A program made the position numbers and the translations under genes. Below the pieces are notes generated by a model, which did not search any database, was not told the DNA's origin, and saw only the letters and a list, made by a program, of their open reading frames with translations. From the NCBI GenBank assembly GCA_003554845.1, contig PWHK01000004.1, positions 1-37,054 on the forward strand: a stretch of 37,054 bases of DNA. Direction: 5' to 3'. Shown here in pieces: positions 7,016-34,348 of this stretch. The DNA comes from Candidatus Aenigmatarchaeota archaeon. GTDB taxonomy: Archaea; Aenigmatarchaeota; Aenigmatarchaeia; PWEA01. The stretch's first letter is position 1, and the number at the start of each line of letters is the position of its first letter.

Positions 7016-7789
7016 ATGGCCTTTTCAAAGGCACAGAGTAAAGTTTTTAAACAACAATACCGAAGTTTACTTAAACAGTCTAAAACAGTCCCTCGGTCTG
7101 TTTGGATATGTGGGGTATTTCCAATGGATGTGAACTCTGTACTTATGTTGACACAGAAGTACAACGAAGGTGAAAAGCTGACGGAGTACTGCCAGAGACT
7201 TGCATCGTATCTCAAGAATAAAGATATAGAAACACATCTTGTATGCTTCGGAGAAGAGGACAGAGATGAAAGTATAGGGAATCTCAACCTACATGAATTC
7301 TCGTTTAAGATGCACGGTGACAACTACTTCTCGTGGTCTATGCTTCTACAGGCAAGGTTTATGGAAAAAATCGAGGAGATCATAAAGAAAGAGGACATAG
7401 AGATAATACATGCCAACGACTGGCCAACACTACCTGCAAGTCTGACGGCAAGCAAGCTACATGATATTCCATTTGTTGTAACCTACCACTCCATAGAGGA
7501 AGAAAGAGGGATGGACAACCCACACTCACACCAGATATCCGATCTCGAGTGGGAGGGAATAGAAGAAGCGTCCTTCATAGTAGTCCACAGGGATAAAACT
7601 GCGGAGGCCATGGAAGTATACGACCTACCCGAAAAGAAAGTTAAACTCCTCGCAGGAGAAGACTGGGAAAAGGACGTTTTGGATCTGTACACGAGATCCG
7701 TAGAGGTAAAAACAAACCTTAAAAATATGGAAAACGGAGCCAAGGAAAATGAAAATTTTGATGCTTACGTGGGAGTATCCTCCCAATAA
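7016..7789 (+). CDS. Standalone N-terminal half of a GT4/GT5-like glycosyltransferase (no donor-binding C-terminal domain)
   Basis: 257 aa; EIIHANDWPTLPASLTA...VVTYHSIEEE...SDLEWEGIEEA is collinear with the next gene's DIIHAHDWSAVTAAASLK...ITTLHSLERS...NDLEWYGAYEA, then ends. Confidence 0.7.
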   Translation: MAFSKAQSKVFKQQYRSLLKQSKTVPRSVWICGVFPMDVNSVLMLTQKYNEGEKLTEYCQRLASYLKNKDIETHLVCFGEEDRDESIGNLNLHEFSFKMHGDNYFSWSMLLQARFMEKIEEIIKKEDIEIIHANDWPTLPASLTASKLHDIPFVVTYHSIEEERGMDNPHSHQISDLEWEGIEEASFIVVHRDKTAEAMEVYDLPEKKVKLLAGEDWEKDVLDLYTRSVEVKTNLKNMENGAKENENFDAYVGVSSQ

Positions 7790-24471: not shown

Positions 24472-24583
24472 GGGCCGGTAGTCTAGTGGCTATGACGCCA
24501 CCCTTACAGTACGAAACGGGATTTCAATTTCCGTTGACGTATCGGAAAGGTGGAGATCGCAAGTTCGAATCTTGCTCGGCCCA
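24472..24583 (+). tRNA. tRNA-Val(TAC) with about 39-nt intron at canonical 37/38 (about 24509-24547)
   Basis: GGGCCGG/TCGGCCC acceptor; CCACC/GGTGG stem; loop CTTACA|intron|A; inner intron helix TACG/CGTA; second helix AACGG/CCGTT. Confidence 0.9.
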
Positions 24584-24604
24584 TCACAAAAGGAGGTGAT
24601 CGAA

Positions 24605-24766
24605 GTGTTGATTGTTAAGAACGCTGTAAAAGAAGCTGCAGGTGACAAGAACGTTAGCTCTGACTTTTACGAAAAACTTGATGAAGAAGTAAAGGAGCTT
24701 ATAGGAAAAGCAGTAGAAAGAGCAGAAGCAAACGGAAGGAAAACTGTACAGGCAAGAGATCTATAG
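24605..24766 (+). CDS. Short histone-fold-like / DUF1931-type protein
   Basis: LIVKNAVKEAAGDKNVSSDFYEKLDEEVKELIGKAVERAEANGRKTVQARDL; ggaggtgat SD upstream; non-ATG start (GTG 24605 or TTG 24608). Confidence 0.65.
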   Translation: MLIVKNAVKEAAGDKNVSSDFYEKLDEEVKELIGKAVERAEANGRKTVQARDL

Positions 24767-24774
24767 GAGATCTC
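24756..24774 (+). terminator. Hairpin spanning the stop codon, followed by a pyrimidine/T-rich run
   Basis: GAGATCT-ATAGG-AGATCTC followed by catccctttcctttttatttttt. Confidence 0.45.
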
Positions 24775-24817
24775 ATCCCTTTCCTTTTTATTTTTTAAAA
24801 CACAGAGTTAGATGGAT

Positions 24818-24933
24818 GCTCCTGTAGTCTAGTCCGGCCAAGGATACTGGCCTTTCGATTTCCGAAAGGATTGAGCCATTTCGGCGATGAAAGAAGAAAG
24901 CCAGTGACCCGGGTTCGAATCCCGGCGGGAGCA
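24818..24933 (+). tRNA. tRNA-Glu(TTC) with 41-nt canonical 37/38 intron (24858-24898)
   Basis: CTGGC-CTTTCG|intron|A-GCCAG; BHB central helix CTTT/GAAG, 3-nt bulges CGA and AAA, inner helix TTTC/GAAA. Confidence 0.93.
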
Positions 24934-24941
24934 TTCCCCAT

Positions 24942-25047
24942 GCGGGGGTACCCAAGCGGTCAAAGGGGCTAGATTCCTGTAAAAGGAAAGCCAAGCTTAG
25001 GACCTAGTGGTTTAGTACCTTCGCAGGTTCGAATCCTGCCCCCCGCA
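24942..25047 (+). tRNA. tRNA-Leu(TAG) with 22-nt non-canonical intron at about 30/31 (24973-24994)
   Basis: Removing the insert restores CTAGG-CTTAGGA-CCTAG; BHB central helix GGCT/AGCC with bulges AGA and AAG, inner helix TTCCT/AGGAA. Confidence 0.88.
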
Positions 25048-32827: not shown

Positions 32828-32916
32828 GCTCCCGTAGTCTAGTCCGGCCAAAGTTTTGCGGCTATGGATACGAGCCTCTCGAGCTCGGGACCCGGGTTCG
32901 AATCCCGGCGGGAGCA
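32828..32916 (+). tRNA. tRNA-Glu(CTC) with 14-nt non-canonical D-arm intron at about 21/22 (32852-32865); CCA follows
   Basis: GCTCCCG/CGGGAGC acceptor, CGAGC-CTCTCGA-GCTCG anticodon arm. Exon context GGCCAA|GGATAC is identical to intact tRNA-Glu(TTC); insert AGTTTTGCGGCTAT. Confidence 0.87.
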
Positions 32917-33013
32917 CCATTTTCACCACATACCGACAGGTAAATGCAGTAAGATAAGAAAAAGAAAATGTAAATAAGAAATTAAACCTGTTTTAAAAAG
33001 AAAGCTGAACTCT

Positions 33014-33628: not shown

Positions 33629-33789
33629 AAAATACACCCCCTAGGAACCTTACGATTTTTTTTTAGACTTTTACATCTCGGAACGTATAAACTACTTTAT
33701 GCTCAAAGTATTTAAATCTTTTCCCTCGATTGTCGAACATTTGATATCAAATAAAAATATATAAACCGCAGACAGAAATCCATAACCAT

Positions 33790-33976
33790 GCGGGGATACC
33801 CAAGCGGTCAAAATCAAAGATTTGAAAACTGTGAGGTTTTCAAGCTTGAGAACCCTAAAGTTCTCAATATTTTGACTTTAGCCAGTCAAGCTGACGAAAC
33901 GATCAAATGGCCAAAGGGGCTAGGTTCAGGGCCTAGTGGTTTAGTACCTTCGTCGGTTCGAATCCGGCTCCCCGCA
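33790..33976 (+). tRNA. tRNA-Leu(CAG) with 103-nt non-canonical D-arm intron at about 21/22 (33812-33914)
   Basis: GCGGGGA/TCCCCGC acceptor, CTAGG-TTCAGGG-CCTAG anticodon arm. Excision restores GCGGTCAAAGGGGCTAG, as in tRNA-Leu(TAG). BHB GGTC/GGCC with AAA and AAA bulges. Confidence 0.9.
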
Positions 33977-33982
33977 TCCAAA

Positions 33983-34348
33983 CTAATTTCTTAAATGGTT
34001 TTCCAGTTCACCCAGTCCTTTGAAAAACTTCTCGGCTGCTTCATCGGAAACCTGTTCGGCAAAAATACTATAGGCCTCAAGTATTCCATAATCTCTTGCT
34101 CCTTTTTTGACCTTTTCTATAATCTCCTCTGAAATCTCAGGAAACTCATCTTCTCCGAGATCTATAAAAAGACTCATCTCCTCGTCGCTGTCTATCTTTC
34201 CGAAGTCATCGGGCATCATGGTCTTGAACTCGTCCAGATCCAGGGATTCGAGATGATGTTTATGGGCACCACAGAAGGGACATACATCAGGTTTGTCTGT
34301 TCCAAGATAGACTTCACCACAGACGTCACAACGGCATGCCTCGTACAT
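33983..34348 (-). CDS. Hypothetical protein with N-terminal rubredoxin-like zinc/iron knuckles
   Basis: CDVCGEVYLGTDKPDVCPFCGAHKHHLE; helical C-terminus. Confidence 0.75.
   Translation of the reverse strand: MYEACRCDVCGEVYLGTDKPDVCPFCGAHKHHLESLDLDEFKTMMPDDFGKIDSDEEMSLFIDLGEDEFPEISEEIIEKVKKGARDYGILEAYSIFAEQVSDEAAEKFFKGLGELENHLRN

Follow-up and report, generated by a model that had tools for sequence, protein, structure and literature searches.

The introns of archaeal tRNA genes have median lengths per isodecoder of mostly 12 to 25 nt, within a range of 11 to 129 nt (PMC4090602), and a count over 217 archaeal genomes gave 673 non-canonical introns (PMC8450103). The closest described counterparts of the intron analyzed here are the non-canonical (non-37/38) bulge-helix-bulge (BHB) introns of Thermoproteales, Thaumarchaeota, ARMAN, and Asgard archaea, with which it shares the position in the D-arm, the helix formed between exon and intron, and the A-rich bulges. 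Those introns also occur several per genome and are overlooked by standard tRNA finders, as was the case here. The differences lie in the length (103 nt), the three tandem hairpins, and the host, a member of the Aenigmatarchaeota; no paper on tRNA introns in this lineage was found in the literature searched. The intron of archaeal tRNA-Trp that bears a box C/D guide is likewise long and structured, but it occupies the anticodon position and has conserved guide boxes, which were not seen in the 103-nt intron. The latter belongs to a known kind of archaeal intron and is a long representative of it; its length is what sets it apart.

The window, i.e., the whole stretch of 37,054 nt that was analyzed, is contig C20 of the MAG (633 kb, 95% complete) of a tiny uncultured archaeon of the Aenigmatarchaeota. 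Its GatB is 81% identical to that of Candidatus Aenigmatarchaeota MAG T1Sed10_94, and the next relatives show 75, 72, and 68% identity. The tRNA-Leu(CAG) gene spans 187 nt (33790-33976) and lies, with all its elements given below, on the + strand. It is preceded, in order, by gatA, gatB, trmY, tRNA-Arg(TCG), tRNA-Glu(CTC), a cold-shock-like gene, and a 91-aa gene, and followed by a 121-aa gene on the opposite strand (the gatA and cold-shock-like identities are our reading of the ORFs). A TATA-box-like promoter element read from the sequence, AAATATATAAA (33755-33765), lies about 25 nt before the tRNA, and the same stretch precedes the intronless ortholog of a congener (L041). The 5' exon (33790-33811) comprises the acceptor 5' strand, the D stem CCC, and the D-loop up to GGTCAA, while the 3' exon (33915-33976) carries the D stem GGG, the anticodon CAG (33927-33929), the long variable arm, the T arm, the acceptor 3' strand, and the discriminator A. 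A mechanical 68-aa ORF runs across the tRNA gene and the insert (33788-33994), with no sign of being a real gene.

The insert interrupts the D-loop after GGTCAA, a position other than 37/38. The D-loop string GCGGTCAA starts at 33804 and its continuation AGGGGCTAG at 33915, leaving 103 nt between (33812-33914); these strings, the gap, and the hairpins within it all lie where an earlier note on this DNA had placed them. The same D-loop is contiguous in the tRNA-Leu(TAG) gene of this genome at 24942 (GGTCAAAGGGGC), as that note had also claimed. The unspliced gene was missed by ARAGORN and by the Rfam model RF00005 at its gathering threshold, and when the 103 nt were deleted ARAGORN called a tRNA-Leu(cag). 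The D-arm obtained by deletion, GCGGTCAAAGGGGC, is identical to those of the spliced tRNA-Leu(CAA) and the unsplit tRNA-Leu(TAG) of the same genome, so the proposal that removal rebuilds an intact D-arm held. The spliced product stays the same if the boundary is shifted by as many as 3 A residues. A search of the host MAG with the stretch from anticodon to variable arm, allowing up to 3 mismatches, matched only this gene and tRNA-Leu(TAG); it gave no second, uninterrupted tRNA-Leu(CAG), which the note had named as a finding that would speak against it. The observation of an interrupted tRNA-Leu(CAG) gene is confirmed, and the reading of the insert as a D-arm intron of BHB type, which draws support from orthologs with no intron or a short one at this locus and from the splice plan of sister tRNAs, is very likely right.

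When only the acceptor, anticodon, and T stems were imposed, the best fold of the precursor (-66.3 kcal/mol) held the D stem, the three hairpins, and a 4-bp central helix between GGTC of the exon (G18 G19 U C, 33806-33809) and GGCC of the intron (33909-33912). This helix is flanked by 3-nt AAA bulges on both sides (33810-33812 and 33913-33915), as the note had drawn it. The motif is not a strict hBHBh', since the inner and outer helices do not stack on the bulges. On the 5' side the bulge leads into a multiloop and carries no stacked inner helix, and forcing one (ATTTGA/TCAAAT) costs a penalty of 7 kcal/mol; the 3' bulge faces AAGC in a 4x3 internal loop between the central helix and the D stem. 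One extra A-T pair beside GGTC/GGCC in the constrained fold could narrow the 5' bulge. The free fold is 0.9 kcal/mol lower (-67.2 kcal/mol); it joins GGTCAAAAT to ATTTTGACT at the expense of the cloverleaf, and we regard it as a misfold. A relaxed BHB is the best reading of these predicted structures. Splicing at an internal GATC-AAA was discarded, as it leaves no tRNA.

It is highly probable that this tRNA-Leu(CAG) gene, present in a single copy, is expressed and that its long non-canonical D-loop intron is spliced through a relaxed BHB by EndA and RtcB. In the precursor, the D-loop G18-G19-U-C would pair with GGCC at the 3' end of the intron, while the three hairpins would fold the remainder of the intron into the multiloop. 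By the BHB rule and the fold, EndA would cut within both AAA bulges (33811/33812 and 33914/33915), and RtcB would join the exons into a normal tRNA-Leu(CAG). The released intron may be circular, and its persistence as a circular RNA is plausible. The D-loop site is a recurrent intron site in the genus, and the added length and the hairpins would represent a lineage-specific expansion.

An RtcB gene is present in the host genome. EndA was not found in the host MAG, and neither was its usual neighbor, a CBS-domain gene (only a distant match of 26% was recovered). The joint absence of the two genes makes an assembly gap the likely cause, and a biological loss of EndA was judged unlikely on the same grounds. 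EndA was found in all five genus mates searched, as a protein of 364 to 372 aa with two PF01974 repeats, while the EndA of order mates has a single repeat. The catalytic repeat of the Aenigmatarchaeota enzymes (L128-L132, L121-L125) keeps the Tyr and the His and has Ser or Ala at the position of Lys156 of M. jannaschii; in some a Lys occurs one residue later, and in G006 and G011 there is none. The loop between Tyr and His contains a KKGxKS insertion that matches the catalytic subunit of Nanoarchaeum equitans (3IEY_A). We rejected its assignment to the ARMAN-2/crenarchaeal loop (ASL/CSL), because Y160/K161 of the ASL lie upstream of Tyr236. The Aenigmatarchaeota enzymes have no insertion where the ASL and CSL sit, and these loops were likewise rejected as the source of a broad specificity. 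The EndA of N. equitans is described as cleaving non-canonical motifs (Randau et al. 2005, as cited in PMC4090602). Judging from its substrates, the Aenigmatarchaeota EndA would be broad in specificity.

The syntenic locus was compared in four relatives of the genus (L041 to L044), which showed that the intron, and even the gene, differ among close relatives. In L041 (G005), tRNA-Leu(CAG) stands between the same flanking genes without an intron, and its 3' exon shares about 97% identity with that of the host. In L043 (G001), the gene has an intron of about 40 nt at the same site, with a central helix GGTC/GACC, an inner helix AGAA/TTCT, and one hairpin. In L042 and L044 (G004), the flanking 91-aa and 121-aa genes are kept and the tRNA-Leu(CAG) gene is missing between them. 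No tRNA-Leu(CAG) was found in the incomplete MAGs G002 to G004. The absence of the gene at the locus in two relatives suggests that tRNA-Leu(CAG) may be dispensable.

The three-hairpin array is restricted to the host genome, the relatives having either no intron or a one-hairpin intron. Its perfect stems of 8 bp (33822-33843), 8 bp (33846-33867), and 6 bp (33872-33889), identified by string match and fold, each close a 6-nt loop. The regularity remarked on in the note exceeds chance: of 5,000 dinucleotide shuffles of the intron, 4 contained three perfect hairpins of 6 bp or more that do not overlap, and none reached a total stem length of 22 bp. The minimum free energy of the whole intron is only modestly low relative to shuffles (z = -2.0). 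The arms of hairpins 1 and 2 agree at 7 of 8 positions and differ by one compensatory change (A-T to G-C), and the two hairpins share 16 of 24 nt overall, which is consistent with their origin by duplication. For hairpin 3, the resemblance is weak, so the idea of duplicated units applies to the first two only. The kissing contact proposed between loop 2 and hairpin 3 did not hold up, as it amounts to 4 bp between loops and is equaled by some pair among the three loops in 13% of shuffles. A 20-nt segment of the window (33833-33852) matches a Leu tRNA intron of G001 (L191, contig C109) in inverted orientation at 19 of 20 nt (E = 0.027); this is the best local match outside the host genome and possibly reflects either chance or recombination between introns.

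The regular hairpins and the compensatory pair between hairpins 1 and 2 could be accounted for if the intron were a functional structured or circular RNA, a guide or a regulator, for which the box C/D guides carried by archaeal tRNA-Trp introns (PMC4090602) offer a precedent. We consider this unlikely. Rfam families matched the intron only below threshold (E = 0.9 or worse), no box C/C' pair was seen by eye, and the intron alone had no significant relative in 61 genomes. Within the six genus genomes, the pattern TTGARAAC-N6-GTTYTCAA (at most 1 mismatch) occurs only as hairpins 1 and 2; a dispersed hairpin repeat was dropped on this account. The note had set conservation or covariation of the hairpins in relatives as a check, and the hairpins turned out not to be conserved, which counts against them and not against the intron. 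Their absence from relatives gives no evidence of selection for a function, and a function beyond being spliced out finds no support in these sequences.

Introns in the D-loop are common in this genome. Within a host tRNA set compiled from searches and sequence stretches, which may be incomplete, five other genes have clear D-loop introns of 13 to 18 nt that follow the same splice plan, the exon half being the D-loop G18-G19 motif and its complement being supplied by the intron. They are Leu(CAA) (13 nt), Leu(TAA) (18 nt), Glu(CTC) (32828-32919 in the window, with a 14-nt intron at 32852-32865, AGTTTTGCGGCTAT), Gln(CTG) (13 nt), and a gene that we read as probably Ile(TAT) (18 nt). A Val gene has a probable D-loop intron of about 30 nt. 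The D-spliced form of Ile(TAT) was called Pro by ARAGORN, because a further intron remains, and Glu(CTC) was reported as "tRNA-???" and has a nearly identical intron in L041. At 103 nt, the intron in Leu(CAG) exceeds the other D-loop introns of the host several-fold in length. In another cluster of the window (24472-25047), tRNA-Val(TAC), tRNA-Glu(TTC), and tRNA-Leu(TAG) each have an intron in the anticodon region.

In the tRNA-Glu(CTC) gene of L042 (about 7380-7520), the 5' splice site of the 14-nt D-loop intron appears to have taken up a further intron of about 43 nt, and the two look like stacked introns on one exon half-site. The inserted segment has its own GGCC/GGCC pairing at the 5' junction, and the 14-nt intron is identical to the host one at 13 of 14 positions. 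The 103-nt insert might by analogy be no single unit but a pair of D-loop introns that are stacked on a shared 5' splice site and excised one after the other, given that the host GGTC could instead pair with GACT at hairpin 3. That alternative would pair the AAA bulge with TTT, within the same GGTCAAAAT/ATTTTGACT duplex as the free fold, and abolish the 5' bulge, a loss that the single-intron structure does not require; we hold a composite intron to be very improbable. Least probable of all is a disabled or decaying gene with an unspliced insert, CUG being read by tRNA-Leu(TAG), which would agree with the missing Leu(CAG) genes of the genus and with the failure of standard finders but not with two exons that make a full cloverleaf, a 3' exon so close to that of the intronless ortholog, a conserved promoter-like stretch, and boundaries that yield a perfect D-arm.

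Of 160 genomes of the class, 20 matched a pattern for the 3' half of Leu(CAG), a few of them with Leu genes that have another anticodon. In most of the 20 this D-loop site is free of an insert, and some have inserts of about 50 to 70 nt before GGTC. In a member of another family of the class (G106, L206), the Leu(CAG) gene spans 270 nt and contains, besides a 102-nt D-loop intron, about 52 nt inserted earlier in the D-arm and an intron in the T-loop. Its D-loop intron resembles that of the host in isoacceptor, site, length, and possession of several hairpins, but the two lack sequence similarity, the central helix is CTGG/CCAG, and the additional D-arm insertion and T-loop intron have no equivalent in the host. 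The lack of similarity indicates that long hairpinned D-loop introns in Leu(CAG) probably arose at least twice. The intron had been described as unusual; this stands for its length relative to the other host introns and not for the D-loop site, which is common in the genome and the class, nor is the length unmatched, given the 102-nt intron of G106. In other Leu(CAG) genes (L015/L214, L212, L213, L216, L217, L218, and L221), the interruption lies in the T-loop directly after TTCGAA, and in L015 the motif GGCGGCAGCCTTACTTTCCGGG is tandemly repeated in the insert downstream.

The intron of Leu(CAG) in G001 (L043) closely resembles the D-loop intron of Leu(TAG) in G003 (L012/L194), with 85.7% identity over 35 nt, while the Leu(TAG) genes of G004, G005, and the host lack a D-loop intron. 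This similarity points to intron movement, and transfer between isoacceptors, by recombination or otherwise, is the simplest reading of the sequences. Similar introns in different tRNA genes are also the mark of the transposition of tRNA introns that was described for Thermoproteales (Fujishima 2010, as cited in PMC4033280). Compared with that account, the scale here is small, a single pair, and the 103-nt intron has no copy elsewhere. As a tentative and rather speculative extension, the invariant D-loop G18-G19-Y-C of Aenigmatarchaeota could repeatedly serve as a landing site for introns with a complementary GRCY half of their own; such introns would move between isoacceptors, stack as in L042, and grow, perhaps via reverse splicing, with the 103-nt array as a late, expanded state.

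Since standard finders can miss such genes, the tRNA sets of small DPANN genomes may seem more incomplete than they are. These results add a lineage in which D-loop tRNA introns abound. The series observed at one locus within a genus (gene missing, intronless, with an intron of about 40 nt, and with one of 103 nt) allows the gain, loss, and expansion of introns to be tested.
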